Shown piece after piece: positions 1-19,700 of a DNA stretch of 64,000 bases. The notes under the pieces were generated by a model. The model was not told where the DNA came from. It saw only the letters and a list, made by a program, of their open reading frames with translations, and searched no databases. The translations under genes and the position numbers were made by a program. Every line of letters begins with the position of its first letter. Position 1 is the first letter of the stretch. This DNA is from a virus. The DNA is taken from positions 1 to 64,000 of IMG/VR virus record IMGVR_UViG_3300044846_002605. One strand, written 5' to 3'.

Positions 1-1150
1 AGTCTTTATCTAAAATAAACTCACCGCCTTCATTAATCATATCTAGCATTTCTGCTAAAGATGTTGTTGCTTCAAGTTTAGAAATGTTGATTTTCTTACC
101 AAGCATTTTTCTTAAAAACTGCTTAATATGAAATAAGATATTTTGAATTACAGATCTAGGAACTTTATTTTTTTCATCCAAAGCTTTTACAATTACCTCC
201 TCCATAAATTCTGGAGAATTAACTGCATAATCAGCAGACTCACCTGTTAATGCTTTAAATATTTGTTGTCCTTCAGGCGTATTCAAAACCTCTTGATACA
301 AACCTAAAAACAAATTAGGATTTTCTTTAGCAATAGACTTGATAATTGGGTGACAAAATTCATGAAAAACCGTAGATTCATCAAAAGCTCCCTCAACTAA
401 ATAGACTTTACCATTTTTGTAAAAACCTTTTACTCCCGGTTGTGTAATCCCAAATCTACTTTCAAGTTCTTCAGGTAAAACAATTTCAGCTTCAATCCCT
501 AATTGTGCAGATAGTTGTTGAATTTTTTGAATTGCTTTTTTAGAATTTTCAGTTTGCACAATGCGCTGAAAGTCTTTTACAAAATCATCTTCAATTACAG
601 CATCAGTTTCTAATGCGCCTTCATAAGTTTCTTCTACCGATGGTGAATATCTTTGTTCTAATTTATCCAACACAATACTAGCCGGTCTAACAACTCCGTT
701 TTGTTCAAAGTAATCACGGTATGCTTCATTTTTTCCTAAAGCTTTAGCATTAACGGCTAACTTTCTTTTGTTTTCAGGTGTAATAGAAATAGACTCATTG
801 TTCATTAAATTAAACAAAGTGTGATCATCAATCTCTGTAGTTTGATCTCTGTCTGTTTGATGTTCCCAAGAAGATGGTAAATCATAAAAGTCAGTAATCA
901 ATTCATTAGTTGATTGCTCAAAAACTGGTTCTTCAAGCGTGTCAAATTCTGCCAACCACTCCGCCATTGGATCCATTGCTCTTTCGCTTGCAGTCATTTG
1001 AGCTAACTGCAAGTCTTCCATTGTAGGAAAAGAATCAGAATTATTCTGATCCATCCAAATACTAACCTCTGCTTTTAATAAGTCAGGGTGAAGTCCTGTT
1101 TGTTCTAACAGGACTTTAAATTGTGGGTGTGATGTATTTACACAAAACAT
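1..1150 (-). CDS. Partial zincin-like metalloprotease-domain protein (C-terminus beyond window)
   Basis: The frame is open from an ATG at 1150 down to base 1 (about 383 codons) and runs out of the window. Around residues 263-267 it has HEFCH, an HExxH zinc-protease motif, in the context VFHEFCHP; this is followed by a helical stretch (FHIKQFLRKMLGK) of the kind that often follows zincin domains in large phage proteins. The N-terminal third is acidic and helical. The gene starts 4 bases after the stop of the 4189-aa gene, so it belongs to the same late operon of presumed ejected proteins. Cleavage of phage or host proteins is an inference; the third zinc ligand was not identified. It could be part of another giant polyprotein. 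Confidence 0.75.
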   Translation of the reverse strand, partial: MFCVNTSHPQFKVLLEQTGLHPDLLKAEVSIWMDQNNSDSFPTMEDLQLAQMTASERAMDPMAEWLAEFDTLEEPVFEQSTNELITDFYDLPSSWEHQTDRDQTTEIDDHTLFNLMNNESISITPENKRKLAVNAKALGKNEAYRDYFEQNGVVRPASIVLDKLEQRYSPSVEETYEGALETDAVIEDDFVKDFQRIVQTENSKKAIQKIQQLSAQLGIEAEIVLPEELESRFGITQPGVKGFYKNGKVYLVEGAFDESTVFHEFCHPIIKSIAKENPNLFLGLYQEVLNTPEGQQIFKALTGESADYAVNSPEFMEEVIVKALDEKNKVPRSVIQNILFHIKQFLRKMLGKKINISKLEATTSLAEMLDMINEGGEFILDKD

Positions 1151-1154
1151 ATTC

Positions 1155-4100
1155 TTAGCAGTTTAACTGTTGTTCAATTATTACTCGTTGTCTGTCCAAA
1201 GGTAAAGATAAAAAATCCTTCATTGGCATGTCCCCTTTGTACTTGTCTTCAAATCTTTCAATGTCATAAACAAACATGGTTCCTGTTCCATTTACCCAGT
1301 TGCGTGATTGATCATACATAAAGTCTGCTTCAGTTGCAACTCCTTCAGATTTAAGCATTGCTGTTTTTCCACCAGCTTCTTCAATTGTCATTTCACCACG
1401 AAGAGTAATTACCAAACCTGTATTTTTTACAATTTGTGTACCTGACTCACCTTTAGCCAAACCTGCTTGATTTTCTTTTCTAATAGTTGTAGTTTTAGTA
1501 CCATTTACCAATTTAGTTTGGTTCGGACTTGATGGAGTTTCTGTAAAACTCAAAGCTAGTTTTTTAACTTTTGTTTGCAACGGATTTGCATTTGTAGAAA
1601 TCTGAATTAATGTGCCATTATCATTATCAAATCCAAACTCTTCCAATAATCTTTGTTTCAGATATGCGTATGTTCTTGGAGCTTTAGTTTTTAATGCGGC
1701 TAATCCTGTACCTAAACCATCTTTAGGGAAGACAACTGTTTTTCCAGCTCTTTTAATTTTTGCAATATCAGAATTAATAACAGATTTGTTAGCATCAAAA
1801 TCTGTATCTGTCATAAACGCATCTTCATCTGCAGAAGGTCTTAACTTAGTTGATATACCCATTGCATTAGCTTCATCTCTAATAGATGCTTGACCTTTTT
1901 TACCTTGTCTTTGATTGTTATCTCCAAATACATAAATCTTATCTAAATTAGCTTGTAACATTTCTGGAGTATAGTAACTATTTTCAACTTCAACTTTAGA
2001 AAATGACTGAATAGAACTTGCTTTAGCCAATTTAAGAATAGCTACACGGTTTCCATCATTTTCAGGCCACTGCATAGCTTTATTTGAAGTCAATGAAATG
2101 ATTGTTCCTTTTGGTGTAACAATGTAATTACTGTCTTTGTAATTAACAATTTTAGCTTTACTACTCAAAATTTCTACACTTGCTTTAGATACAGGAATTT
2201 TAGCAGATGCGCCTTCCAATAAAGGATTATAAATCTGAACAGTTCCATTTTCATTAAACTGAGTAACAATATAAGTAGCTCCCTGGTATTTTACAAATGA
2301 GCCAACCTCCATGTTAAATGACAAAGGTTGAACAACAATTGGAGCTTTTACTGCATTACCCATTCTGTGTTTAATAATATCAGCTTTCATCTTATAAAGT
2401 GCCTGCTCTAAAGCAGCTGACAATGGTGAATTTCCAATTGCAATTTGTCCTTTTGATGAAACTAATTCATTTGCAAATTGAATTTTATACTTGATGTTGC
2501 GGTTAAGCTCTGTGATAATTTTGTCATAAGCAACAGCGGTTCCTTTTTCAAATTTTTCTTTTTCAGTTAAACTATCAAACCATTTGTTTTCTCTGTCATC
2601 ATTAAACAGTTTTCCAACTAAATCTTTTGCTCCTAAAGTACTAGCAGTTACTACTGGGCTATTAATATCATAGTTCAAATCTTCAAAAGAAGAAGTAGAT
2701 TTTCTCATCTGATAATATTTTCCAATCGCAGCATAAACAGGTACTTTTACATAACCTTGTTCTTCTAAATAATTTACAGCCATCTGATCCATTCCATTGG
2801 CAGTTCCAACATTAAATATTTTTACACCGGCTTTAATTGCTTTATCAATGTTTGGCTTATGGTATGAATTAAAAGTGTTGTCTAAAGCAATTTGGAACTC
2901 TTCAATTGAAACATTTTTTATTCTGTTTGCAAATATTCCACTACCAAATACCCAAACTACATCTGTAGATTTGAAACGTGTGCCTTTTTCCGCCAGTTTC
3001 CCAGGATATTTTGCTGTTAACTCATCAACATAACTCTGACTAGAAGATTTAGCGTTAGGGTTCACTATTGTTGCTTGTCCAATTGCCATTGTAGATGCAT
3101 TTGCCATAGCTTCATCTTTAACTGAATGAACAGGCATAAGCTTTAATCCTAAACCGCCTATTGACAAGAATCCTTTTTTAGCGGATTTAGATTTATATTC
3201 TAGTGTTGGAAAATCCCCTGAGTTGTTTATTCCAAAGTAATCTAATAGCAACTTATCAAATTCACTTTGATTTTGATCTGTAGGAACAACCAGTTTCTGA
3301 TTAAGAATTGCTAATTTTTTGTCTTTAATTGACTCAGCAAATTCTTCAGGAGTGTATTCTCCTTCTTCATCAAAAAACAAACCTGCTGTTAAAGCCAATG
3401 TGTCTTTAGGTAATCCAACCAATGAACTCTTAATAGAAACATTATTAAATGAAAGCAATGTTTCTGGAGTAGCTGTAGTTTTACCTAATGCCAAATTATT
3501 GACTTGATAATTGTAACCTCTTACACGCATTCTATAATTGTTTTCAAGCATGTTAATAAATGACTCTTTAAATTGGCCAAGAAGTTGTAAATCTGGCACA
3601 ATTGGTTCATTTTCTTTGTTAAGGTTATTTAATTCAGCAGCTTTGATGTTGTTATCAATTTGATTTAACTCATTGATAACTCTTCCAATACCAATTCCAT
3701 TGTCAATAGTTTCATGCAAATGTTCAGCATCAATAATTTTACCTAAGTCATATTGCGACCTGCGGTTTAATCCTGTTTGCATCATAGCAATGTGATTAAA
3801 CAAACCAAAAAATTCTGCAATTTCTGGACGCGAATCATTTCTAAGATTAGCTAAGTTTTCTTTATACTGTTTTCTTAAATTAACATCAGAAATGTCAGGC
3901 AAGTACATGTTTGATTTTTTGCTTTTCTTATCATTGTTAAATTTCATATCTCTGATAAGAGCATATTTTTCAACCAGCTCTGGATTTTCCTGCTTGAATC
4001 TTTTAAACATGTTGGCTACACTAGTAGGTCCGGTAAAGAAAGAATTATGATTTCTTGAATTGTAAAGAGCTATCTTTTGTTTTAGATACTCCGTTGGATA

Positions 4101-7100
4101 TTTCTTTTTTGCACCATCCAAAAAGTAATAATCTTTTTCTAATTGCTCCGTTGGAATACCATCTAGTTTTTGATATTCAATTTTGAATCTTACATACTGG
4201 TCTAAGTTTTTAAAATTGCTTTGGACATATTTTAATTCCAACTCAGGGTTGTTAATATCATTACCTAATAATGCTCCACCAAAAGATACAGTTTTATTTT
4301 CTTCATCTATGGTAAATGGAGCATTTGGATCTGAAAGATTAGGCTTAAACGTGTATCCACCATAAGTACCTTTTTTAAACAAGGAGTTTTGATACAAGAA
4401 CCAGATAAAATCATTTTTAAAATCTGTTCTTAAAACTACATCAGAAGTACCTTTTGGTTTATGATCCATAATCTCTTTGTCCAATGACACTTTAACCAGT
4501 GCCGGATTATCTCTTAAACTAAAGTATCTTTCAAAAATGTCAACTAAAAATTGATCATTATCGAATTGACCAACTGGGCTATTTTTAATACCCTCACTTC
4601 CAAACCAAGCTTGAGGTACATAAGTTTCTCTTGATTTAAATTCTTTGATGTCATCAATTCTTTTTTGAGCTTCAGAAATTGTAGCAATTTTGTTAGTATC
4701 AAAACGAGTAAGTTGCTGAAATTTGGAAACATCACTAGCCATTTTTTCAATGTGAATATATTCTGCTAAAGCTTCAAGCTGTCTTTTATCAATTGTGCTT
4801 TGACCAACAAGTTCTCTTAACTCATTTTCAGTAAAGCTTTCTGTATTCCTATTAGCTATGCTTTTGTAGTTAAATGATTCATACCCCAAAACCGCAAATA
4901 ATTCTGAGTGATTATTGAATATCATTTCTTGAGCTTTTGCATTCACCCTTGAATTATTGACAATAGGATTTACCTCTGGATCTAAATCAAGCGTAGAATA
5001 AACACCACTTAATTCTTTTTTGTACTGGTTATATTCCATTACCAAAGGCGTAGATGAAAGATAAGTCGCACTTTCCAAACTTACACCTGCCATAATCATA
5101 AATAGCAATGTAGGCGTATTTTGTTTGTTACCTTGCATGTTGAATATCCAGGCATCTTTAGCAACATCCACATAACCGTTAATCATCTGAGATAATAAAT
5201 CTGAAATAGATTGGTTCTTAACATTGTTAGCAATACCAAGAGCAACATGCTCACCTAAAGCAGAAGTAAGTTTGTTGTGATCTAATTTAAAAGTGTAATC
5301 CTTAAATTTATTTACCACATTTTGAGCTTCTGTGATTGTCTTTTCATTTGGCATTTGCTTTTTCAAAGAAATCAATTCTTTTTGTGCATCTGCTGGCAAA
5401 GAATCACCGTGTTTTTCTCTTAATTCTTCAATCTTTAAATTAATTTCTGAAGCAAGAGCTAAAACTTGTATTTGCTTATCAAATTCAGCTTGTTTTTTAG
5501 CAGAAACCGCATTTAACTTAGCACCAAATGTTTGAAACATTGCATAGTAAGTTGCTGTTACAGCTGCTATTCCAAGCGAATCCATACCAACAGAGTTCTC
5601 TTGGTGCTTCAACAAGTTATATTCATAGTCAAAGATTGTGGTAGGAGAAACACCATCAGTGCTGTCATCATTGATTCTTTCGTATTTGTTAAAGCGTGTA
5701 GCACCATCTCTTTTTCTAATTGCTTTTTCCATTTCCTGAGCAATTGGTAAAGCGACATCTGTAGAGTTAGTAGTGATTAAGTCTTTAATGTTTGAAGGGA
5801 GCGTAATTTTTTCAGTAAACAATGCAAGCATCTCATTTTCTAATCCTTTGATGGACTTGCCATAAATCTTTCTTTGAATTTCTTCTCTGGCTGCATCAAG
5901 TTGAGATAATTTAGATTTTTCTGCATCAATTAAACTTTGATTGTAATTGTAAAAATCAGTTGCTAATTCGGCACCCAATTCATCAAACATAATTCTTTTA
6001 ATTTCTGCTTCTTGGAACTCAATTAGTTCATTTACCTGTTCTAGTTGCTCAGTGTACTGAGTAATGAACTTTTGACGTTGTTTAAATGAAACATTTTTAA
6101 ATTTCCATAAACCATTTTCTGCTGCATTCAAATAACCATTTAATTCTCTTCTTGTTTCATAAAGATCTTTTTCTAATTTTTGTTGATCCTGAATTTGAGC
6201 TTTAACATCTGCAGCTATTTCATTACTTTGCTCCCAAAACAACTCACGGTCCTGATACAAAGTATCTATTCTTTCCTGAACAGCCTTTAGTTGCTGTGTA
6301 TATTTATCTTTTTCCTTATACAACTCTTCAACTGATTCTTTTACATCAGCTCTGTATTGTTGCAACTCGACTTTATTCCCAATCTTAACAATGTTTGGGA
6401 ACTGAGTAAACAATTTATCAATATCATAATCAGATCCAGCTTTAGCAACAATCTCTGCTGGCAAAATAACTATTGGACCAGCCCATTCAGGTAAAAATTC
6501 AGCAACTGTAATTGACTCCAATGCATTTGGTCCCTGTGATGGAATACGATCACCTGCAATTTGTAAAAACTGAGCATGCTTAGCATTCCATTCTTTATTG
6601 CGGATTGACTCATTCAATCTATTCAAAGATGCATTGTAATTCAATACAGATTTACCATCTTTATCTTTTTCATAAACTGCAATTTTCTTACCATCAAAGT
6701 GATCAAGATACAAAAGCTTTTTAAATCCGCCCTGAAGTGAAATTTTCACCTCCATGCTTTTTACAATCCAACTTTTTGTGTCTTCTGTAAGAACCGGATT
6801 TCCATTTTTATCAGTTATGTGATAAAAAGAAAGGCCATTAGAACCATAATTAAAGATGTCTGCATCAGTTGGATTTTCAAGTTTAGCAAATTTAGCAGCG
6901 CGTTCTTTGTTCTCAAACATTGTTCCTGGTACTTGAACTAAAGCTTCACCATTTACATTAAGCGAGCGTAGTTTTTTATCAGCCAATGTCATTAATATAG
7001 CCTCAATCTTTTCACTATACATAGACAATGAAAAATCAAGAGTTTCTGCATTTTTGGATACACTGATGATATAATCAATATCATCTGAAAGCATGTCATT

Positions 7101-10100
7101 GCTTTTCATTTGTTTTTCCAAATAATCCACAAGCTTTTTAGGGCTACCTGTTAATTTTCCTGAAGCGTCATAAGTTAAACCTAAGTCATCAATTAACTCT
7201 TGTTTAAGATGAGTTTGTATTTTTGAAATTACAACTTCATATCTTTTGTACCAATCATAATTTTTAGATGCGGCTCTTTTCTTTGACTCAGATAAAGCTT
7301 TCCACTTTTGAGTTCTTTCTGCTTCAGATAAATCTGTTTTATAATCTGTAGGGATTTGTTCTTCATCAAACAAACCAAGAGTAATCATCTTTCTTTTCTG
7401 CGTAGGCAAAGTAATTTTTCCTTTGTATCCCGGAGCTAAATAAATCTGATTTTTTAAATACTTTGAGTGGATTTGATTTACAGTAAACTGTACATCATTT
7501 GTTTTTCTTTCATCATCATAAAACTCATCAAACTTTGCAGTTGGCTCCATCCTTTTGGATTTTTTATCCATTGCCAATTCCACTTTAGAGATAGATGACA
7601 ATTTAGATCCTGACTCCATGGTAATGTAATCTACACCCTGCTCCATCATTTTTTCATGAAGATCTTGTAATGGAGTACCAGCTATAAGATCAGGAATCAA
7701 AGGCATCAAAGAGTACTTGTGGAACGCCATCATTTGCAAGTTAAATGCAGCATCTGCATTATTTACTTGACCATAGTATTGAAACTTTCTTACAGGAAAA
7801 GTTACTTTGCGATCTTGATCAGTAAGAGGTGTGCCGTCAAGCATTTTTTTATAAACTGCATCTTGAGCATCAGACCATTCACCACAAGCAAGATTTAAAA
7901 TACGGTACATGTCAAATGAAATCCAACCAGCACCATCTGCTTCTTTCATTTTGTTTTTAGTACCATAATCTTTTGTATCAATCAGTTCATTCCACTGTTT
8001 CAAATACACCGATGCAGTTTTCTTTTCTTGGATTACTCCAGAATTTATGTATCCTGAATAAGTACGGCCTGTTTGTTTTTGATTATGATTTTCTGCAAAA
8101 CCAAATGCTTTAAAGCTTGGTTTGTTTACATAACTCAAAAATGCTGAGTCATTAGCAAATATTTTACCAGTTGAAATTAAACCGGCAATACGCTTGTGAT
8201 AACCTTCACCTTTAACATCATGAATTGCTGCATCACCAATAAACAGTGTAGCAAAGTTTGCATTTTGAATAAAGTTATTGATAACAAATGTTTTAAACAT
8301 TCGCTGTCTTGTAACATCTACTTCTTCATCAGCAGTTTTTTTGTAATCTGCAAGAAGATTATCAGAAATAGTAAGCTGTTTATTTTTTCTGTTGAATAAA
8401 CCTGTAGATCTTGTTTCAAAATAATTTTTAAGCTCTAAGTCAATTTTCTTTTTTAACTCTTTGCTAAGCAATTTATTTAAAACATTTGGATTATTAACAT
8501 CAGCAACCTGAGATTGAGAAATGTTCAAAGCTAGTAATTGATCTTTAGTAGATTTAGAAAGTATATTTGCAAACATGTAAAATGCTCTACCTCTTTTCAA
8601 ATAAGCAGCATCAAAAACAATTTCTTTTTCAGATTCCAAATCCTCCATTGCTTCATTAAGCCTGGTTATTCTAACCAATTCCGCTTCTAAATGAAGATAA
8701 AACTTATCATACAAAAGTGTAGTATTTTTATCAATGTCGTAAGCAGGAGTAAAAATTTTATTGATGTCTTCTTTAGGAAACTCAAGTTGATTTTTAACAA
8801 TCTGGCCATTTCTTTTAATTGGCGCATGTGCTGTTAAAGATGTAGACTTATCAGCAGTTCTTAGAATTTCTTGTTTTCCTTGTAAAGTCAAATCAAAATC
8901 AGTAATAAATTTGGCTTTTTCATCAAGCTTAATTGCACCACTACCTTTATCATCATTTTCAAAAATGATTTTAGATCCAGACAAACTTTCAACGGTGATT
9001 TTAAAATTAGAGTTTCTAGTACCGCGGACTGCCGGGTTAGTAGAATCCAAGTTAAACATATTGATTAACCACGGAGAAGCCGCAGCAAATGGATTAGTCT
9101 GAACATTGAATACCTCAAGACCTGATCCATTTAAAATTTCATCGTAATGTTTAGCATCATTTAATGCACTCACCATTACACTCAATGAAGAGTTGTATGA
9201 CTTTTCACTTTGATTTTCACCTTCAGCATTTTTACCCATGGAACTAGAGTTCTCATCAGAAAACATATACTGAAGTTCTTGCAGTTGTTTAAACCACCCG
9301 TTTAATCCAGTTTGAGTAATTTTTTCACCGTTGGATATGTAATCAAAATCATTGAAAACATCAGCAAGCTGAGTAATTTTTTTGTCTTTTTCTAAAACAG
9401 CGGTTTCTCTGTTCATCAAAGACTTTTGAATATTGGCAACAATTCCTGGATCAATTCCCAAAGCAGGGCTTCCATTAACTAAAATATCTCTGACAATTGG
9501 ATCATCAACTAAGTCAATTCCAATTTGATTTAAAAACTCAAATGGAAGAGCTGCAGCTTTTGTAAGTTTGCCGGTATAAACATCCCCTTCTTTAATATCA
9601 TCTTTGCTTTCTACCCAAACTTCGCTGTCTTCAGTTCCAGAAATTAATCCAAATCCTACTTCAGCGTAATCTTCACCTAAATCAAATGCATTTAATGCAT
9701 ATTCACCAGTGTCCCCTATTTCTTCAAAGTATCCTGTACCTGTTGAAGAAATATAAACAAAGTTGTCAGACCAATCTTTTCCAACTCTATTTGAAGCAGC
9801 TTTAGCTCTTCCAGAACGTGATTCTAACTTGACAGTTTTGGTTTTAGTTTTATTGTCAGTTGTAACAACCTTTTCAATAATAAACTCTCTTAAAAACAAA
9901 TCTGTCTTATTCATTACTTGCCAAAATGCCAACCATGCTTTTTGCTCATCTTGAGTAATATTTGGATTAGTAATGTCACCAAGTTTTGCTAGTATCTGAG
10001 CAATCTCAAAATCTTTTTTAGCTGCCTCAACAAGCTTTTTATGCATTTCAACTCTATCAGTTGTATTACGCAACACCTTGCTTGTTTTAGCAAGCATTTG

Positions 10101-13100
10101 TACAAATGGCTGAATTTTTTTAATACCTAGCGAGTTGACAATAAATGGACCTTTACCGTTATTAGAATGCGCGTGAATAGAACTCAACAATTGTCTTGTT
10201 TGAGCATCTGTAGTTTCAGCAAGAGATTGTTCTGTACCTGTTCTTCCAAATGTATAAGTCAACGCTCTTGTTTCCTCATCTAATGTATCCAAGTAATCTA
10301 CATCTTCCTGGTTGATTTGAACATTGCTGTAATTATTCAAAAACAAACCAATTAAGTTTGTATTCTCCTCTGCATCTAAGTAAAGCATTGCATCTTCTGT
10401 ATTACCAAAAGCCTCAATTGCTTTATTCAAAGTTTTTAATGCAAAATTATCTTCATCTGTAACAGAAGACTTGATGATGTCCCTTTGTTGAATCAACTTA
10501 TTTTTAATAAAAGTCAAAGCTGATTCTAAGATTTCAGGACTTTTTGCAACAGCAAACATACCGTAACCATTTACAACACCTACTTTCTTTTTAAGCTTTT
10601 CAATTTTTTTAAGAACAGCATCATGCTTTTTAGAACCAACCGGATAATTTGCTGATTCAATTTGTAAAGTAGCAATTTGCTTGTTTACTTTTTTGTCAAA
10701 TACACCACTAGTTTTAAAATCAATGAACTCACTCATTAATGACTGCATTGATTCCATCAAAACATTAACTTCTTCTAATGAAAAATCAGTATCTTGATAT
10801 TCAGAAATGCCTTCAGATTTAATATCTTTAAGCATTTGCTTGTAAGCCTTTGCGTGTCTATCAATTGTTTCTTCTGAAACATTTGCTCTATTTACTCCAG
10901 CTGCAATATCTGCTTTTATTCTTTCTTTTGCTAATTCAGCATCTAAAGGCATCAATTTATACTGAATGTTTGATTCAGGCAGTGCTTCTTTAATAGCTTG
11001 AATAAAAGGTCTTCTTTTTTCTTTAGTTAAGTTTGTTGTATCAAAAATAATCTTCTTGCCATTTTTTATAGCCTGTATTGTTCTTAATGCAGCTTCCTTA
11101 TAAATCTCTTCATCTTTAGATTTATTATTCATGTCACCAGTAAATTCAATTCTCATTTCATCTGGTGAAATAACTTCAAAATCATTATTTGCATTAACTG
11201 ATTTAATCCATGTTGATTTACCACTGCCAGATGTACCAATTGTGAGTATAACATCAGCCGGTGTAGTAGCATTAATTTCAGATGATTTGTACAAAGCAGT
11301 TTTTGTAGCCTGCGGATTAAATTTACTTACATCAATGTTTCCTTCATACAAAGCATTAAACATGGTATTAACAACACTTGCGCTTTTATTAAGAGCAATT
11401 GCCTCATTGAATGTCATGTTTTTACCAAACATGCCTTCAAGCATATTCAAGACTTTATCAAAGAACTGCTTTATTCTTACAGATAGTTTTGACTTGCCGC
11501 GATTCATTGAATACTCTCTGAATTTTTCAGCTAGATATTCTTCAATTTCTAAATCTGTGGCAGTTGCAAAAGCTACTGTCTTTGCTTTACCCAGCACAGT
11601 TACTTTAAATGTTCCAGGAGTTTTAGCAATTTCAGAATACATTGCCTTTCTCTCAGACTCAGTTAAGATGGCTTGAGTAAATGCGTGAAATGCTTCGTGA
11701 TAAATATCTGTGTTGTTAGATCCAAGATAAAGATTGATTGAGCTATTCACAAACTCAGCAACAAAACTAGGTCCTTTTTCATGAATTTTATTTCTAAGTG
11801 TTTCATTTAAATTCAGGACTTTAAATAACGGATGAGTTTTAAACCAATTCATAGCCGCTTCTTTTTGCGCCTCAGTTGGTTCCGTTTCCATATTAGTTTC
11901 TGCTAAAGTTCTAAAGAAAACATCATCATCTATTTCATCTTCACCTACTTCTAAATCAGTAACATCTTTAGCAGTAACACCTAATGCTAGGAATGTAGAA
12001 TAACCGCGTAGTTCATTATTTGAATTGGTGACAATAGTTGTGTTTGTATTATCAAGGATATGCTGTCTAATGCTTTTATTACCCAATGAAATCACATTGT
12101 CTTCAATTGAAACAGGAACATTTATTACAGCATCAACATCTGTTACATCTTTAATCCTTAAATTTCTTTTGGCACCAGTTGTAATATACACCTTACCATC
12201 TTTGCCATAAAACAATTGGTTTATATCTGTAGTTTTATCAAATGATTCAAATGGTACAACATTAGTAAACTTAGTAGAATACTTGTATAGTTCAAAAGTT
12301 CTAGTTGTAAAATAGTCTTTAAGTGCTTGGCGAATTGTTTCAGCATTTTCAGGAATAGCTTCAATTTTATGATTATTGATAATCATAAAATATGACAACT
12401 TTCTTTTATTAGTTTCAGCATCCAGCTCTCTTTTAATCATATAAAGAAACTTACCCGCTTCCTTTTTATGAAAATGATAAATAGCTTCTTGTCTTTCACC
12501 AGAATCCATATCAGATTGATATTCTGCTCCAGTGTTACGCTTTGTTCCTTTCTTTTGCAGTTTAGGTTCAGTAATCAACTTTGTCAAAATATCCAATTCT
12601 TCATCAGAAATATCCGCCAATGAATTTTCATACATTGGTTTTTCCTCTGGCATTGCAGTAGTTCCTAATAAAGGAACATGCATTACTGCAATGGTTTGGT
12701 TGTTTGTTTTCTTAACAATAATTGGAACCTGATCAACATTTGCAATAGTGTTCATTTGAGTTTTCTTGTGGATGTTTTCCTCCACAGTACCCATAGAACT
12801 ATTTTGAATATTAATTGAAAAAGTAACCGCCTCTCCAGAAGCATGTTTCTTTTTCATTTGTTCTATAAGATCAAGATAGCCATTTACTTCTTGTTCTGTT
12901 TGTAAAGTAGCTTGTTGTAAAGACATACCTCTTGACATCAAAGAAACTGTTCGTTCTTTAATCCAAAAGTTCAAATCATACTTACTTTGCTTAAATGTAA
13001 ATACGGGAGTTGTCCCATCTTCATCAATTTTGTTGTCAACAAATCTTACAATTTTTCCTGTAGAATCAACCGGCACCAAAACATAAGCATCTGGGTTTGT

Positions 13101-13724
13101 ATCTTTGTTAGTATTTAAAACTTGATTTACATTTTGCAATTCGCGTTGCTGTACAAGTTTTAACTGTAAACCGTCAGCATTTTCTGAATTAATGATGGAT
13201 CTTTGTACACCAAATTCAAATTCTTTTTCCGGATCTGTTACATTACCTCTGTACCCCACACCCTCTTCATAAACCATTTCCTGATTTGCAGTTTTAAACA
13301 AATCCAAAGTAATAGCATTAAACACCATAGCTGGTGCCGCAGGAATAACCACAGTTGATTTTCCAATTATCTGTCCTAACTTATCAATTACTTTTTGGAA
13401 ATCCTTTTTATTCTTTGACTGAGATGCTTCATAGATTTCCGCGCTCAATTTATTTAAAGCTCCTAGCACATTTGGGTTACTCGCAGAAGGTGTTTCGCCC
13501 ATATATTGCTTAACCATTTGTGGTGCTATAGATAAGTGCTGTAGGATCAACTCTCGGTTTCTAGTTTCAGATAAACCAGTATTGCTAAAATCAGAAATTG
13601 CCTTATCAAACAATCTGTTTAATAAGGCATTAGCTGAAATGTCATTTGTAAATTGGTTTGGAATCTCTTTTTTAAAATATGCACTAAACAATTTTATAGA
13701 CTCCGGAGTAATACAAACATTCAT
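1155..13724 (-). CDS. Giant multidomain protein, candidate virion RNA polymerase with zincin, kinase, SLOG-like and ASCH-like domains
   Basis: One uninterrupted 4189-codon frame. Visible landmarks: HEAFH (residues 676-680), a zincin HExxH motif; a P-loop GTSGSGKST at 830-838 followed by DEMR at 855-858 and DTTNLTKEKRR, matching the order and spacing of T4 polynucleotide kinase; a basic stretch near 2100 (PTQKRKM) that may belong to the first double-psi barrel; RIPSQGPN followed by DYDID at about 2431-2435, matching the D-x-D-x-D metal-binding loop of crAss-like virion RNA polymerases and YonO; then a SLOG/DUF2493-like domain (about 3585-3690, VFGSG and GMDQMA), an FGDN-type domain (about 3905-4020) and an ASCH-like domain (about 4050-4180, KTTTIR). 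In crAss-like phages such proteins are packaged and injected to transcribe early genes. It is about twice the length of the phi14:2 polymerase. The polymerase assignment is fairly secure, enzyme activity of the other domains is inferred. Confidence 0.75.
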   Translation of the reverse strand: MNVCITPESIKLFSAYFKKEIPNQFTNDISANALLNRLFDKAISDFSNTGLSETRNRELILQHLSIAPQMVKQYMGETPSASNPNVLGALNKLSAEIYEASQSKNKKDFQKVIDKLGQIIGKSTVVIPAAPAMVFNAITLDLFKTANQEMVYEEGVGYRGNVTDPEKEFEFGVQRSIINSENADGLQLKLVQQRELQNVNQVLNTNKDTNPDAYVLVPVDSTGKIVRFVDNKIDEDGTTPVFTFKQSKYDLNFWIKERTVSLMSRGMSLQQATLQTEQEVNGYLDLIEQMKKKHASGEAVTFSINIQNSSMGTVEENIHKKTQMNTIANVDQVPIIVKKTNNQTIAVMHVPLLGTTAMPEEKPMYENSLADISDEELDILTKLITEPKLQKKGTKRNTGAEYQSDMDSGERQEAIYHFHKKEAGKFLYMIKRELDAETNKRKLSYFMIINNHKIEAIPENAETIRQALKDYFTTRTFELYKYSTKFTNVVPFESFDKTTDINQLFYGKDGKVYITTGAKRNLRIKDVTDVDAVINVPVSIEDNVISLGNKSIRQHILDNTNTTIVTNSNNELRGYSTFLALGVTAKDVTDLEVGEDEIDDDVFFRTLAETNMETEPTEAQKEAAMNWFKTHPLFKVLNLNETLRNKIHEKGPSFVAEFVNSSINLYLGSNNTDIYHEAFHAFTQAILTESERKAMYSEIAKTPGTFKVTVLGKAKTVAFATATDLEIEEYLAEKFREYSMNRGKSKLSVRIKQFFDKVLNMLEGMFGKNMTFNEAIALNKSASVVNTMFNALYEGNIDVSKFNPQATKTALYKSSEINATTPADVILTIGTSGSGKSTWIKSVNANNDFEVISPDEMRIEFTGDMNNKSKDEEIYKEAALRTIQAIKNGKKIIFDTTNLTKEKRRPFIQAIKEALPESNIQYKLMPLDAELAKERIKADIAAGVNRANVSEETIDRHAKAYKQMLKDIKSEGISEYQDTDFSLEEVNVLMESMQSLMSEFIDFKTSGVFDKKVNKQIATLQIESANYPVGSKKHDAVLKKIEKLKKKVGVVNGYGMFAVAKSPEILESALTFIKNKLIQQRDIIKSSVTDEDNFALKTLNKAIEAFGNTEDAMLYLDAEENTNLIGLFLNNYSNVQINQEDVDYLDTLDEETRALTYTFGRTGTEQSLAETTDAQTRQLLSSIHAHSNNGKGPFIVNSLGIKKIQPFVQMLAKTSKVLRNTTDRVEMHKKLVEAAKKDFEIAQILAKLGDITNPNITQDEQKAWLAFWQVMNKTDLFLREFIIEKVVTTDNKTKTKTVKLESRSGRAKAASNRVGKDWSDNFVYISSTGTGYFEEIGDTGEYALNAFDLGEDYAEVGFGLISGTEDSEVWVESKDDIKEGDVYTGKLTKAAALPFEFLNQIGIDLVDDPIVRDILVNGSPALGIDPGIVANIQKSLMNRETAVLEKDKKITQLADVFNDFDYISNGEKITQTGLNGWFKQLQELQYMFSDENSSSMGKNAEGENQSEKSYNSSLSVMVSALNDAKHYDEILNGSGLEVFNVQTNPFAAASPWLINMFNLDSTNPAVRGTRNSNFKITVESLSGSKIIFENDDKGSGAIKLDEKAKFITDFDLTLQGKQEILRTADKSTSLTAHAPIKRNGQIVKNQLEFPKEDINKIFTPAYDIDKNTTLLYDKFYLHLEAELVRITRLNEAMEDLESEKEIVFDAAYLKRGRAFYMFANILSKSTKDQLLALNISQSQVADVNNPNVLNKLLSKELKKKIDLELKNYFETRSTGLFNRKNKQLTISDNLLADYKKTADEEVDVTRQRMFKTFVINNFIQNANFATLFIGDAAIHDVKGEGYHKRIAGLISTGKIFANDSAFLSYVNKPSFKAFGFAENHNQKQTGRTYSGYINSGVIQEKKTASVYLKQWNELIDTKDYGTKNKMKEADGAGWISFDMYRILNLACGEWSDAQDAVYKKMLDGTPLTDQDRKVTFPVRKFQYYGQVNNADAAFNLQMMAFHKYSLMPLIPDLIAGTPLQDLHEKMMEQGVDYITMESGSKLSSISKVELAMDKKSKRMEPTAKFDEFYDDERKTNDVQFTVNQIHSKYLKNQIYLAPGYKGKITLPTQKRKMITLGLFDEEQIPTDYKTDLSEAERTQKWKALSESKKRAASKNYDWYKRYEVVISKIQTHLKQELIDDLGLTYDASGKLTGSPKKLVDYLEKQMKSNDMLSDDIDYIISVSKNAETLDFSLSMYSEKIEAILMTLADKKLRSLNVNGEALVQVPGTMFENKERAAKFAKLENPTDADIFNYGSNGLSFYHITDKNGNPVLTEDTKSWIVKSMEVKISLQGGFKKLLYLDHFDGKKIAVYEKDKDGKSVLNYNASLNRLNESIRNKEWNAKHAQFLQIAGDRIPSQGPNALESITVAEFLPEWAGPIVILPAEIVAKAGSDYDIDKLFTQFPNIVKIGNKVELQQYRADVKESVEELYKEKDKYTQQLKAVQERIDTLYQDRELFWEQSNEIAADVKAQIQDQQKLEKDLYETRRELNGYLNAAENGLWKFKNVSFKQRQKFITQYTEQLEQVNELIEFQEAEIKRIMFDELGAELATDFYNYNQSLIDAEKSKLSQLDAAREEIQRKIYGKSIKGLENEMLALFTEKITLPSNIKDLITTNSTDVALPIAQEMEKAIRKRDGATRFNKYERINDDSTDGVSPTTIFDYEYNLLKHQENSVGMDSLGIAAVTATYYAMFQTFGAKLNAVSAKKQAEFDKQIQVLALASEINLKIEELREKHGDSLPADAQKELISLKKQMPNEKTITEAQNVVNKFKDYTFKLDHNKLTSALGEHVALGIANNVKNQSISDLLSQMINGYVDVAKDAWIFNMQGNKQNTPTLLFMIMAGVSLESATYLSSTPLVMEYNQYKKELSGVYSTLDLDPEVNPIVNNSRVNAKAQEMIFNNHSELFAVLGYESFNYKSIANRNTESFTENELRELVGQSTIDKRQLEALAEYIHIEKMASDVSKFQQLTRFDTNKIATISEAQKRIDDIKEFKSRETYVPQAWFGSEGIKNSPVGQFDNDQFLVDIFERYFSLRDNPALVKVSLDKEIMDHKPKGTSDVVLRTDFKNDFIWFLYQNSLFKKGTYGGYTFKPNLSDPNAPFTIDEENKTVSFGGALLGNDINNPELELKYVQSNFKNLDQYVRFKIEYQKLDGIPTEQLEKDYYFLDGAKKKYPTEYLKQKIALYNSRNHNSFFTGPTSVANMFKRFKQENPELVEKYALIRDMKFNNDKKSKKSNMYLPDISDVNLRKQYKENLANLRNDSRPEIAEFFGLFNHIAMMQTGLNRRSQYDLGKIIDAEHLHETIDNGIGIGRVINELNQIDNNIKAAELNNLNKENEPIVPDLQLLGQFKESFINMLENNYRMRVRGYNYQVNNLALGKTTATPETLLSFNNVSIKSSLVGLPKDTLALTAGLFFDEEGEYTPEEFAESIKDKKLAILNQKLVVPTDQNQSEFDKLLLDYFGINNSGDFPTLEYKSKSAKKGFLSIGGLGLKLMPVHSVKDEAMANASTMAIGQATIVNPNAKSSSQSYVDELTAKYPGKLAEKGTRFKSTDVVWVFGSGIFANRIKNVSIEEFQIALDNTFNSYHKPNIDKAIKAGVKIFNVGTANGMDQMAVNYLEEQGYVKVPVYAAIGKYYQMRKSTSSFEDLNYDINSPVVTASTLGAKDLVGKLFNDDRENKWFDSLTEKEKFEKGTAVAYDKIITELNRNIKYKIQFANELVSSKGQIAIGNSPLSAALEQALYKMKADIIKHRMGNAVKAPIVVQPLSFNMEVGSFVKYQGATYIVTQFNENGTVQIYNPLLEGASAKIPVSKASVEILSSKAKIVNYKDSNYIVTPKGTIISLTSNKAMQWPENDGNRVAILKLAKASSIQSFSKVEVENSYYTPEMLQANLDKIYVFGDNNQRQGKKGQASIRDEANAMGISTKLRPSADEDAFMTDTDFDANKSVINSDIAKIKRAGKTVVFPKDGLGTGLAALKTKAPRTYAYLKQRLLEEFGFDNDNGTLIQISTNANPLQTKVKKLALSFTETPSSPNQTKLVNGTKTTTIRKENQAGLAKGESGTQIVKNTGLVITLRGEMTIEEAGGKTAMLKSEGVATEADFMYDQSRNWVNGTGTMFVYDIERFEDKYKGDMPMKDFLSLPLDRQRVIIEQQLNC

Positions 13725-13725
13725 A

Positions 13726-16700
13726 TTATTTACATTTTGTTAACTGCTCAAGAATTTGTGAATTTAAATCAGCATTTTCAAGCTTTTCAAATTCAGCTAC
13801 ACTAGCTGTAAAATTATTAAAAATATCCTGATATGCCTCTTTAATATAATCAATTTCTTGGTCATTAACAACTGTATCCAAGTTTAATTTTGTATATTCT
13901 TGACCTTCTTCAAACACATCTGTAGATTTAAAAAGTTGCTCCATAGGTAAAGTTTGAACTTCACCTGTAGTAATGTCAACCAAATCCACAGTTTTATCCG
14001 CCATGTTGTATGAAAAAATTTGCATTGGGACTTCACCAATTAAAACAGACTGTCCAATAAACGCACCTCGGCCTAACCTCTTCATTAACCTGTCATTCAA
14101 AAAGTTTCTTTGCGGTAATGTAAATTGATTGAAAAGATCAGTATTGGTAATCCTATAAGCAGCCAAAAACAAGTTTAAATTTTTGTCATTTTCTAAAGCC
14201 TCAATCTGTTTAATTAAGAAAGGAACAAATGGATAAGCATCCCCCATTTTTCTTAGTTCTTCTAAGAGTTCTGCTTCAGTTTTATCAACAGCAGTTTGTT
14301 TTGCTTGTATCTCATTTAAATATTCCAAAAAGTCATCAGTGCTCATGTCTTCTTCCGGCATTTCAACTTCTTGATTTGCTGCATCATTTGCTGCTTCAGG
14401 ATCTGATACATCATAAAGCCCGTCTTCTACAGCTTGATCAAATAAAAGTTGCTGAGCTGGAGTCAATGAAGAATAATCAAGCGTAGATAAATTAACCTGT
14501 CCTGTAGTAATTTTAAATTCAAGGGACTTAGTGTACTCTTCAAAATCAGCAGCCGCTTTTTCAGCTTCTTTAGTTCCAATCCAGTTTTCAAATTCCATTT
14601 CAGATTCATACTGGCCGTAATCTTGTTCTTCTTGAAGACTTCTAATTCTTTCTGCTATAGATGTAACCATATCAGAGATAGTCCTGTAATTAGCAAAAAT
14701 TTCATTAACCGCTTCTTGCATATAAACATTTGCATCTTGTATATCACTTGCAAAGTCAGCAGCTGCAGCATCACCTACACCATCAGCAGTTTTGTATTTA
14801 GATTTGTTTGAAATAAAACTTTTGTAAAAAGCAATTTCTCCTTTTCCTCTTGCAACATTTTTGGTAATAAAATCCGGATGTACTCTATTTTCTGGATTAG
14901 AAAACCAATCCGCAACCAACGCTTCTTGAAACAAAGGATCTGTAACCATCACCCCTGAATCATAAATAAACTCGCGAATGGTCATTTTATCCTGAGCTAA
15001 TTTATTTTTAGGCTGAGCTCTCTTAGCTGTACTTGCTCTTTCCTCCAGTGTATAAATAGAACCACTTAAAGCATTACTCCTAGCAATAGTAAGTTTAGTT
15101 CTAGAATTGTAGAATGCATAGTTTACAGCTTTAACAACAGATGGAAGCAGAATTCCTTTGTTCATTAACTCAAAGAATAAATTTATAGCTTGGTCTTCAA
15201 TTTCTTGAGGAGTGCCTTCAAATTTTAAATTCTTTTTGTAATTCTCAGCCTGGAATTTAGCATTTTGTACTACTTGATGTATATTAATCAAGAACTGAGT
15301 TTCATCTTCTTTTGTTTTTAAAGGTCTGCTAAATAACTCTTTGTTGTATAACGCAAGTGCCTTCAACTCGGTTGGTGTTAAAGTAAAACTATACTTCTTA
15401 CCATTATAGGCAACCTTAATAGGTTCTTTACTCTTTACATACTTAGATAAAAGACCATAGTTATAAACAGTACTATTCTCAGCCAACTCTTCAAAGATGT
15501 CTTTTTGATAACCAAGTACCGCTTCAGCGCGTTCTTTTGGTTCCAAGCCCTCAAGTTCGTCAGCAAATGTTTCATTAACAACAGCTATTTGTGAGTCTTG
15601 CTCAAGTTTTCTTTTTTTCTTGCTTACAAAAGCAATCACATCAGGAATCTTGAAGCGGAAAGTTTTACTATCATTCAACAAGTTGTCAATCAAATACGTC
15701 AAGTCTGCCTTTGTCAAAATGTCAAAGTCTTCTTTCAATACTTTTTGCAACAATTCACTTACTTGTTCGCGCTCCATAGCATTGATTGGAACAATTGCTT
15801 GTTTCCTTGCTCTGCGTCTAGCTCGCGCTTCTTCTTTCTGTTGATCTAAACGTTGTTGCTTTAATTGCTTTCCTCTTTCTATTTCAGCTGCATTATGTGC
15901 AGCAAGTTCTTCATCAGTTAATTCAACTGTTACTTGTGGTGGAGGTGCAGGTACAAACTCTTCAGGCTCCTGTTCTTTATTATACTCTATAATTGTTCTC
16001 AAGAAAGACATATCATTTGCCATCATTTTCTGAATGGCATCAATTTCTGCCTCTGAAGGTTCAGCATCAGATTTCACCGTGCCGATTTCAATTTTACTCT
16101 GCTCGTTAAGTCTTACAGTAAATCCAGGACCAATTGAAGCAACAAGTGAATCAAATATATTTCCAAATTGTTCATCCAGCGCATCAACTTCTTCTTCTGG
16201 TGCTTGAGCCATTGAGCGATTTAAAGCCTCCAGTTGTCTTATCTCTGCTTTATACTTACTTCTTATTGCACCAACTGAATTAGCCGCTAAAACCATTCTG
16301 TATTGATCAATAAGCCTATTCTGCAATTCACCTGGTAAAGAAGCAAAAGGAGTTCTTTCAGTAATAACCAATGTATTATCTATGTTTACTTCTTCTTCTA
16401 CCGGTGTTTCTACTGCGGTAGTTTCTGTAGAAACAATTTGAGCTTCACTACCAAACTTTGCATCATACTCAGCTTGAAGATCTTTAAGATCAAGTAAAAG
16501 TTGTGATTTTTGTTTATCCAACTTCATTCTTTTTCTTAACTGCATTTTTGAAGAAGATGCAATTTGCTCATTGACTCTTTTCAAAAGTTCTCTCTTCTGA
16601 TTAATTTCAGTTTTGAGTTTAGTTTCTGCATCAATTAAATCCTGTTCTTCAGTTTGCACTTCTTCTTCTTGTGCAGGCACATCTTCTTCAGGAGCATCAA

Positions 16701-19700
16701 TCTCAACATCAATTTCTCTTTCAACTTCTTCTTCAATTTCTTGAGTACTTCTAATGCCAGTAAACAAGTTAGCTTCTTGAGTTTTTAAATCTCTATCAAT
16801 ATCAGCAAAAACAGAACTTCCGTACTTATTAAATTTTGGATCTTGTCCCTGGTACATTGCTTTAACAAACCACTCATTACCATTAGGGTGTGTGCCTATA
16901 GCTAATAATGGAACCCATTCGCCAAGAGAAGCTGCTGTAGATCCTGTACCTGTAGATTTGTACATCAAGAATTTCACCTTCTTTGTGCCTTGCTGAACAG
17001 TTTCTTCACCTTCTTCAGTGATGTCAGTTTGTTCAGCATTTAATTCATCTTGAAGAGCATTTCTTTGTTTAAGTGTTGATTCTATTTCTGCATCAACATT
17101 TGCATCACTTTGATTAGTTTGTTGAGCAGCTGGACCATTTTTAATTATTGACTCAGCTTGTTCTATAATTTTTCCTGAAGCCTCTTTAGTAGATAATTTA
17201 CCATTAAAAGTTTTTAAGTTATCTACAATTGGTTGAGCAATCTGTTCTGCTGTAAAACCTTCTGGAATTTCTATTGTTACAGAAACATATACAGATGGGC
17301 GATTAGTATCCACTGTAGTTACAACAGGAACTTTAATATTTACAACTCTTTTTCCTTGAGTTGTGTAGCCTTCATCAAATTCGGCCCAATTTTGATTTCT
17401 TTTTACACCATACTCATGTCTAAAATCCGGGTGAGCATCTGAGCTTATTAAATCTTTGGTTGCGTTATTACTTTTGTTTTTAACTAACCATCCGCCAAGA
17501 CCATCAAAAACTGTATAATTGAGTTCAGAAGTATTAGTTGTATCTTTTGTTGATTGAACAGCTTTAACAAAATTTTCAAAACCTCTTTTTTCTACTTCAG
17601 CTCTAGTAACAACTTTAACCTTACCAAAAAGAGGTTTGTTCTTTTTTGCTTCAGCTTCTAGTTCTTGTCTTGCCTCATAATAAAAAGTGCTTTGTACAGG
17701 TGTTAAATATTGAGAATCAAAAATTTCTTTTAATGCAACAACATCATTTCTTTTGGCATTGGTGTCAACTGTTGCTTTTCCTGTAGCTGTTTTTTTAGAA
17801 CTCAGATCCTTTATTTTTGCATCTAAATCAGCAATTTCTTTTTGTAACTCTGCTACACGCGGATTAGCTTTTTTGTTTTGTATAGCTTTCTTTACAAATA
17901 CCGGAACTTCAGCTGTAACATCAATGATTAATCTTCCACCAACTTGAGCACGGATGTTTCCATAAACCCAATTGGTAATTCTTGCATCATCTAATTCTTT
18001 ACCAAGATCAACAAGCTTTTGTGTCCATTCTGCAACAGCCAAATTATTATTGGAAACTACTTCAGGATGTAAAAAATCAGCAAACAACTCTGGATTGTCG
18101 TTAGCATTTTCCAAAAACTCAGTGTTTCCAACTTCAATAGTGCGCGTAACTTTTTCTTTAACTTTTTGCTTAACTGTTTGTTTTGCAGGTTTAGTTTGCT
18201 CATTGAAATATTCTTCAGCTTCAGCTTTAGTATCAAATGCTTTAATGTTTCCATCTTTGTCAGTTACCTGCCAAACACCTGGAACCACTTCCATCAACTT
18301 GAAACCTTTCTTTTCTACAGAACTAACCGGTTCAGGTTTCTCTTCTTCTTCTACTGCGGTTTCATCTGCTTTTTCATCAATGTTATCAGTAATAGATTCA
18401 TCTAATGCCATGTTAGCCAAACTGACCGCGCGTTGTAATACAGAGCCATCAAAAGTCTTATTAAAAGCTTTCATGATTTTAGCCATTAATGACTTCCACA
18501 AAGACTCTTTTTTTCCAGATACTGTATCTGTAACACCGCCCAAAAATGATTGAAATGCAGTATTGTTTAATGACTCAGATAAAAATTCAGCTGTGCTATT
18601 AAACAAAGAAATTTTATCCATATCCAGGTTAGGATACTTTTTAGCAAATGCATCTTTAGCCTGTTGCATTAAATTTTCAACTTCAGTTTGCAAACTTTCG
18701 TTTTCTGCTAAGTTGTCATTTAATTTAGCTTGAGTTAATGCAGAAAGAACAAGTGTTTCAAAGTTTACTGCAACATTTTTGTAATCAGATCCAGCGTATC
18801 TTACATCAATTACAAAGACACCATCTTCATTTAATGAAATTGGAAACTCTGCATTGTCAACAAACATAATTTTTGGCATAGAGTCAGAAACTTTATCCAA
18901 CATCTCTTTGTCAATTTGTGTAAGAAAAGTACTACTCTTTAATTTTCTGAGCATTCTTTCTAATTGAACCGGATCAGATAAATCAATTTCTTTTCCAAGT
19001 TTGATTCCATATTGTCTAAGTAAACCTTTAACGGTTCTCTTGTCTTCAGTGTAACGCAAACTGCGTTTAGAACCACCTGACTTATCCTGAACAATTGTTT
19101 TACCTGTAAGCCTAGCATAAAATTTAGAAATAATATCTTGAGCTTTTTGGTATTCCTCTTTAGACGACTCTTTGTTTGATTCAATGTTGTAAATCTTAGA
19201 AGGCATTATTCCTTTGCCAACTAAATCATCTAATTCATTTAAATCAAAGAAAATACCGGCTTCCTGTAATTCAGTAAGCATTTCGCTTGATGCAGCTTTT
19301 TCTTGAAAAGCATACAACTGATTAGCAATATGTTTTTCTTTGTTCTTATCCAAATCCGCCATCATTTCTGCATTGCGGTCAATCCACATTTTAGCAGATG
19401 TTGGATCTACAAGTGTATTTACAACATCTTGCAAAGCCTGAGATTCAGTTTTTAAATCTAAGTAGTCAACAATTGCATCAAAAGATTTTCTGCTAATTGC
19501 GCGTTTAACCTCTTCAGCTTCTTCTTTGCCATAAAACATTCCATACTCTGCATCAATAGAACGGAAGTCATGATATGCTTCAAACAAATCAGAATAAGCG
19601 TCTTCAATTTCATCTACAGATGGTTCCTCCGCACTTTCCGCTTTTTCTACAGCAGTTAACGCCTTTTGATAATTCTGAAGAGCTTCTAATTTAAACTCTG

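Follow-up and report, generated by a model that had tools for sequence, protein, structure and literature searches.

The virion RNA polymerase-type protein of a putative crAss-like phage carries, between its zincin-like part and its polymerase part, a kinase that is almost certainly a mobile domain cassette, close copies of which occur at many different sites within the giant proteins encoded by other viral contigs. The domain itself is very probably a kinase of the polynucleotide kinase (PNK) type. The favored overall reading, held with moderate confidence, is that of a mobile PNK-type 5'-kinase cassette in injected giant proteins, where it would heal or mark cut nucleic-acid ends before phage genes are expressed.

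The carrier protein and its genomic setting

The window (the whole stretch of viral DNA analyzed here, 64,000 nucleotides) belongs to an IMG/VR virus record of 66,330 bp, which is therefore probably partial. It contains genes for portal, large terminase and major head protein, and a search of the window for RNA families and tRNAs found none. Its three giant-protein genes, and the features within the one that carries the kinase (gene B), are the following.

1155..13724, minus strand: gene B, 4189-aa crAss-like virion RNA polymerase-type giant (predicted), kinase carrier, single open frame
13726..22044, minus strand: gene A, 2772-aa giant protein
2..1162, minus strand: gene C, third giant, truncated by the contig end
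11685..11699, minus strand: zincin-like HEAFH, residues 676-680, shortly before the kinase, read from sequence
10797..11270, minus strand: mobile kinase cassette, residues 819-976, a stretch absent from the 70%-identical relative L002/L004
11211..11237, minus strand: P-loop GTSGSGKST, residues 830-838, K836 and S837 invariant
11151..11162, minus strand: D855-x-x-R858, aligning with the Asp-x-x-Arg of Clostridium thermocellum Pnkp (CthPnkp), invariant in 22 cassettes
11010..11042, minus strand: DTTNLTKEKRR, residues 895-905, D895, T897, N898 and R904 invariant
10887..10922, minus strand: lid, residues 935-946, R935 and R946 invariant, insertion point of another module in L147 and L149
6417..6431, minus strand: RNA polymerase catalytic D-x-D-x-D motif DYDID, residues 2432-2436
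1653..1982, minus strand: DUF7831 domain (Pfam), residues 3915-4024, a variable module in the polymerase tail

Gene B is assigned to the crAss-like virion RNA polymerases (RNAPs) by its predicted catalytic DxDxD motif and its homology to known crAss RNAP. Among 50,697 phage records, the SDYDIDKL region (around residues 2431-2438) matches crAss-like phages only, including Bacteroides phages (annotated as 'putative RNA polymerase') and two Cellulophaga phage records, and the family profile of gene B identifies crAss001 gp50 (probability 99.1, E~1e-18). Additionally, residues 653-776, which include HEAFH, match the C-terminus of crAss001 gp47 by profile (probability 90.5). Because of these matches to the gp47 C-terminus and to gp50, gene B looks like a fusion of a gp47-type end with a gp50-type polymerase, the kinase lying in the stretch between them. 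The profile of gene C yields a weak, non-significant match to crAss001 gp49 (probability 13.7) and that of gene A no significant match to crAss001 gp47, so that the assignment of genes A and C to gp47 and gp49 rests mainly on gene order.

In its composition gene B fits the polyvalent proteins, with HEAFH at residue 676, the kinase and DUF7831 as modules that are present or absent and that move. The DUF7831 segment is a further module, found in the window and in L044; here the alignment of the window protein to its 71%-identical relative L004 ends at residue 3913 and restarts at 4152.

Assignment of the kinase domain

The kinase domain occupies residues ~823-975 of gene B, corresponding to nucleotides of about 10800-11258. 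An earlier note on this DNA had placed it at 10830-11260, which is right to within a few residues, and the motifs that it had read (GTSGSGKST at 830-838, D855-x-x-R858 and DTTNLTKEKRR) are all where it had located them, within one open frame of 4189 aa. Its description of the carrier as a polymerase-type giant with an embedded kinase is likewise borne out by the restriction of the polymerase motif to crAss-like phages and by the profile match to crAss001 gp50.

The motif and family matches lie far above chance. Pfam AAA_33 on the gene B segment passes the cut-off (E=3.6e-17), PHROG 505 ('polynucleotide kinase') matches at 2.3e-14, and NCBIfam bacter_Pnkp does so at 2.5e-11 when the domain is searched alone. 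Against the PDB, a family profile built from 20 related kinases has the CthPnkp kinase as its best match (1.6e-25), followed by Capnocytophaga Pnkp1 (1.6e-20) and T4 Pnk (2e-16) and, further away, by L-seryl-tRNA(Sec) kinase (PSTK; 1.6e-14) and mammalian PNKP (7e-9). The predicted structure of the cassette (mean pLDDT 87.6), compared by Foldseek, gives TM scores of 0.77-0.79 for CthPnkp, 0.75 for Pnkp1, 0.72 for T4 Pnk and 0.66 for PSTK. The nearest solved relatives are the bacterial (C. thermocellum) Pnkp kinases (PDB 4gp7/4jst), with T4 Pnk second. Thus, the earlier characterization of the domain as T4 Pnk-like holds, by profile and fold, as to the PNK type but not as to the nearest relative, bacterial Pnkp being closer than T4 Pnk. 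The earlier note had named a best match to a zeta toxin or to another small-molecule kinase as the outcome that would speak against its reading; neither the profile nor the fold bears this out.

Named phage relatives of the kinase are annotated mostly as polynucleotide kinases, T4-like and others, and a DNA-level search among named phages gave no match. A bacterial origin of the kinase was considered and rejected, the seven bacterial matches all being at most 40% identical.

The P-loop Lys-Ser and the Asp-x-x-Arg follow one another in the order found in T4 Pnk and CthPnkp, as is characteristic of a predicted Pnkp/T4 Pnk-type 5'-kinase. D855 corresponds to the CthPnkp catalytic aspartate, which is Asn in chain 4mde (DNA complex), and R935 occupies the position of the CthPnkp lid Arg in the profile alignment. 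K836, S837, D855, R858, D895, T897, N898, R904, R935 and R946 do not vary among 22 cassettes; for the P-loop this is partly a product of the sampling, because the kinases were collected with patterns from their own motifs, and the residues outside the P-loop are less affected by this motif-based collection of the family. The dN/dS of the cassettes ranges from 0.05 to 0.30, and the cassette is under purifying selection.

Presence, absence and movement of the cassette

The alignment of gene B to its closest relative (L002/L004; 70-71% identity along the full protein) covers residues 1-818 and resumes directly at 976, exactly residues 819-976 being absent. Six relatives are colinear at the window's site and have no kinase there, and the records of 31 polymerase relatives contain no full AAA_33 domain, with at most a fragmentary match. 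The window's site is also unbroken in L148, where the kinase stands at the C-terminal end of that protein, and in L142, which carries it in the neighboring protein. A deletion in the relative, instead of an insertion in the window, is unlikely given the six relatives that lack the kinase at this site and the two that carry it elsewhere. The GC content of the insert (31.2% vs 32.6%) reveals no foreign composition, so that no recent donor can be named on this basis.

A scan with the kinase alone returned seven close copies, and a scan with an alignment of those returned 25 contigs; these further viral contigs carry the same kinase at 54-82% identity. All kinase contigs are metagenomic and partial, and each of the 25 contains exactly one copy. 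In 23 of them the kinase lies within a giant frame of 1097-7432 aa, and of the remaining two kinases one is truncated at the contig end, the other frameshifted. The frameshifted copy (L152, around 10001-10415) reflects either a sequencing error or a decaying copy. The positions occupied by the kinase are listed below (equivalent labels: L127/L038, L128/L039, L135/L041, L142/L042, L146/L043 and L147/L044).

Gene A homologue: L128/L039, L142/L042
Gene C homologue: L126, L135/L041, L137, L146/L043
Polymerase C-terminal tail: L127, L129, L130, L132, L134, L136, L148
Polymerase N-terminal side: window, L143, L144
B-C fusion: L138
42 residues after the catalytic motif: L147

A kinase tree separates the embedded copies, as a single clade, from the free-standing kinases (support 100/100). 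On this tree of 28 rows the site labels undergo at least 14 changes, and within the embedded clade the host-gene label switches 7 times, which is the maximum that those labels allow; a starred branch unites copies from gene A, from gene C and from a polymerase tail. How similar two kinases are shows no correlation with how similar their surrounding proteins are (rho -0.13, p 0.16, 125 pairs). For instance, L129 and L130 share 97% identity in the kinase vs 53% in the surrounding protein, and L138 and L143 share 91% vs 26%. Between L129 and L130, nucleotide identity is ~100% in the domain and reaches background level no more than about 30 nt from its edges; in three other pairs the same step starts from a lower plateau. 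Slow evolution of the kinase instead of transfer is rejected, since the identities are uncorrelated and the similarity stops at the domain edges, and an assembly chimera is rejected as well, since the cassette recurs at many sites among 25 other contigs, 24 of which have it in frame. The kinase fusion that the earlier note had proposed stands, whereas the mobility of the cassette across many sites had escaped it.

In L148 (ORF 2-10996), a near-identical 39-nt direct repeat at aa 3323 and 3490 flanks the cassette (NSQSSNPVSTEAT / NSQSSEPVSTEAT), a possible trace of cassette entry that is present in this one case only. In L140/L141 the linker TPQQKQQA-x-x-LYSQYLDT stands on the left side of the kinase, and in L137/L138 a close variant of it stands on the right side. 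It is as if such common linkers guided recombination.

Other mobile modules

An all-against-all comparison of the giant proteins uncovers more modules, with 47-70% identity, in proteins that share about 30% elsewhere. Domain-sized segments that are 56-70% identical include the following pairs (positions in aa).

L005 3446-3589 and L038 2835-3000
L010 2894-3060 and L039
L034 1663-1816 and L040
L031 4131-4257 and L034 1803-1930

These segments looked SLOG-, DUF4326- and ART-like, an impression that comes without confirmation by Pfam. An apparent match of the A4 profile to the repeat protein 3jqh in the PDB was set aside as an artefact of repeats.

In L147 (kinase at aa 1462 of ORF 5618-13699) and L149 (from aa 1317 of ORF 6053-15820), the kinase lid is split by another mobile module, read as ASCH-like, and both kinase halves are kept. 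The same module also occurs alone near the C-terminus of the L004 polymerase, and in the composite model of L149 (mean pLDDT 75) the elements of the kinase persist and surround a strand-rich insert that stands apart from them. In the polymerase tail of L132 (ORF 2-11392), an AlkB-type 2OG-Fe(II) oxygenase (aa 3585-3747; 2e-21) directly follows the kinase; AlkB-type oxygenases are a family known for nucleic-acid repair. Additionally, an SF1 helicase (AAA_30 + UvrD_C_2; aa 2186-2629) is fused in the polymerase tail of L038 (ORF 3-9431) before the kinase. A more speculative generalization, possible though doubtful, is that in crAss-like phages the domain is the unit of transfer, and that cassettes hop by a defined recombination route between the linkers of injected giants, even nested in one another, as an interchangeable payload acting in the host before phage gene expression.

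Proposed role and alternative explanations

Virions of crAss001 contain the RNA-polymerase-associated giants gp47, gp49 and gp50, as determined by mass spectrometry, and the ejection of these proteins is predicted to precede that of the DNA (PMC10172136). By analogy, the kinase is probably delivered with the virion; the earlier suggestion that its carrier is injected agrees with the packaging and predicted ejection of this protein class in crAss001 (PMC10172136). Close copies in intact genes are found only in giants, where each contig has a single one and any of the three proteins may house it, which fits selection for early delivery.

The proposed cassette, of about 155 aa (about 465 nt), would spread as a self-contained unit among crAss-like phages and would be kept in one of three neighboring giant virion-cargo proteins, in the window the putative virion RNAP. 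As judged from crAss001 virion proteomics, the kinase would enter the host together with the polymerase at DNA entry, and there it could transfer the gamma-phosphate of ATP to the 5'-OH ends of RNA or DNA. Ends of this type left by host RNases or DNases might in this way be healed or marked before phage gene expression. That the kinase acts on nucleic-acid 5' ends is rather likely in view of its motifs and relatives, and that it specifically counters damage of the anticodon-nuclease type is a tentative and on balance unlikely refinement.

With respect to partners in end healing, Pfam finds no HAD or metallophosphoesterase domain that could serve as a 3'-phosphatase in the 4189-aa gene B protein, and the window's record contains no RNA ligase. 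RNA_ligase (PF09414) occurs in one of 24 kinase-bearing contigs, all of them fragments; this sole instance is in G055 (the contig of L149) at 31415-31987 on the plus strand, in a 369-aa frame. RtcB was found in none of the same 24 incomplete contigs, nor was T4 Rnl1, in a search in which no control matched either. The classical T4 repair set thus appears to be missing from what is visible in partial contigs. Having no ligase or 3'-phosphatase of its own, the kinase would need host enzymes or another phage product, and the ends may be marked rather than prepared for sealing, with host or unseen phage enzymes as partners.

The visible lack of a ligase partner also suits a different, if improbable, explanation, in which the PNK-like fold phosphorylates another acceptor, such as an aminoacyl-tRNA-linked group (like PSTK), a nucleotide signal or an ADP-ribose-type molecule, and the kinase is an injected effector and not an end-healer. 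PSTK is the next family by sequence and fold (1.6e-14, TM 0.66), and the kinase of L131 and L127/L038 has further mobile modules next to it, two of which looked DUF4326/SLOG-type (again without confirmation by Pfam), domains proposed to act on ADP-ribose derivatives (PMC9503650). However, polynucleotide kinases are closest in every search, and the adjoining AlkB-type oxygenase of L132 (2e-21) argues against this explanation as well. A lower probability still attaches to a cassette that is tolerated or selfish, bringing little benefit to the phage or being unfolded or removed during ejection. Its many sites, the flexible linkers that flank it, the frameshifted copy in L152 and the module nested in the lid in two phages would all be compatible with this, but the dN/dS of 0.05-0.30, the catalytic motifs invariant in 22 copies, the single copy in 25 of 25 contigs and the retention of both kinase halves in nested copies speak against it, and the invariable location of close copies in intact genes inside giant cargo proteins suggests selection on delivery. 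A zeta-toxin-like kinase poisoning host cell-wall precursors, a kind of kinase already known in polyvalent proteins (PMC5512222), is very improbable, since the weak Pfam Zeta_toxin matches (0.0048 in the window protein, below the cut-off, and 6e-6 in L132, above it) are surpassed by AAA_33 by at least 10 orders of magnitude on the same proteins, and zeta toxins are absent from the 60 best PDB profile matches and from the 50 best fold matches listed.

Comparison with known systems

The favored kinase for 5' ends has its closest known counterpart in the N-terminal 5'-kinase of CthPnkp (PDB 4gp6/4gp7/4jst/4mde), with which it shares the P-loop, the Asp-x-x-Arg, the D-x-T-N, the lid arginine and the overall fold (TM 0.77-0.79, about 25% identity). 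In CthPnkp, the kinase is joined to phosphatase and ligase domains, whereas the window kinase stands alone inside a virion RNA polymerase-type protein. T4 Pnk (PseT; PDB 1ltq/1ly1/2ia5) has an identical motif order and a similar fold (TM 0.72), but the cassette comes without the HAD 3'-phosphatase half, no RNA ligase is seen nearby, and the cassette is not a separate enzyme of the infected cell. A distant homologue exists in crAss001 itself, the standalone gp61 (144 aa, annotated as polynucleotide kinase; 24.5% identity, E 1.5e-5), which, unlike the cassette, is encoded by a free-standing gene distant from the giant-protein genes.

The carrier resembles the crAss-like virion RNAP and its partners (phi14:2 gp66; crAss001 gp47/gp49/gp50) in DxDxD motif, family and gene order, and differs from crAss001 gp50 and from its own close relatives, which have neither the kinase cassette nor several other modules. 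crAss-like phages are the most abundant human gut viruses, and the recurrent entry of the kinase into their huge injected proteins marks these as a payload platform. The main survey of crAss-like phages describes introns, inteins and code changes in the genes for the giants and, in the parts of its text that were searched, no kinase in these proteins (PMC7886860), and two further papers on the crAss-like order make no mention of any kinase. In agreement with the expectation of the earlier note, no description of a fusion between a kinase and a polymerase giant was found in the open-access literature searched.

Polyvalent proteins, including N4-type virion RNAP fusions (PMC5512222), offer the broadest parallel, being giant and multidomain, with a zincin-like part, exchangeable enzymatic domains and predicted injection. 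Their survey (Iyer et al., 2017; PMC5512222) names zeta-toxin-like kinases and protein kinases, and includes no polynucleotide kinase and no crAss-like polymerase. The cassette adds a concrete candidate case of pre-emptive counter-defence, one that can be tested, as well as a case of domain-level horizontal transfer among viruses whose surrounding proteins are only 20-50% identical. Thus, what is new here is a PNK-type module that is mobile between injected giants, in a polymerase class for which the open-access literature searched gives no prior description of it; what was already known is the polyvalent proteins as a giant, injected, zincin-containing class with shuffled domains (PMC5512222).
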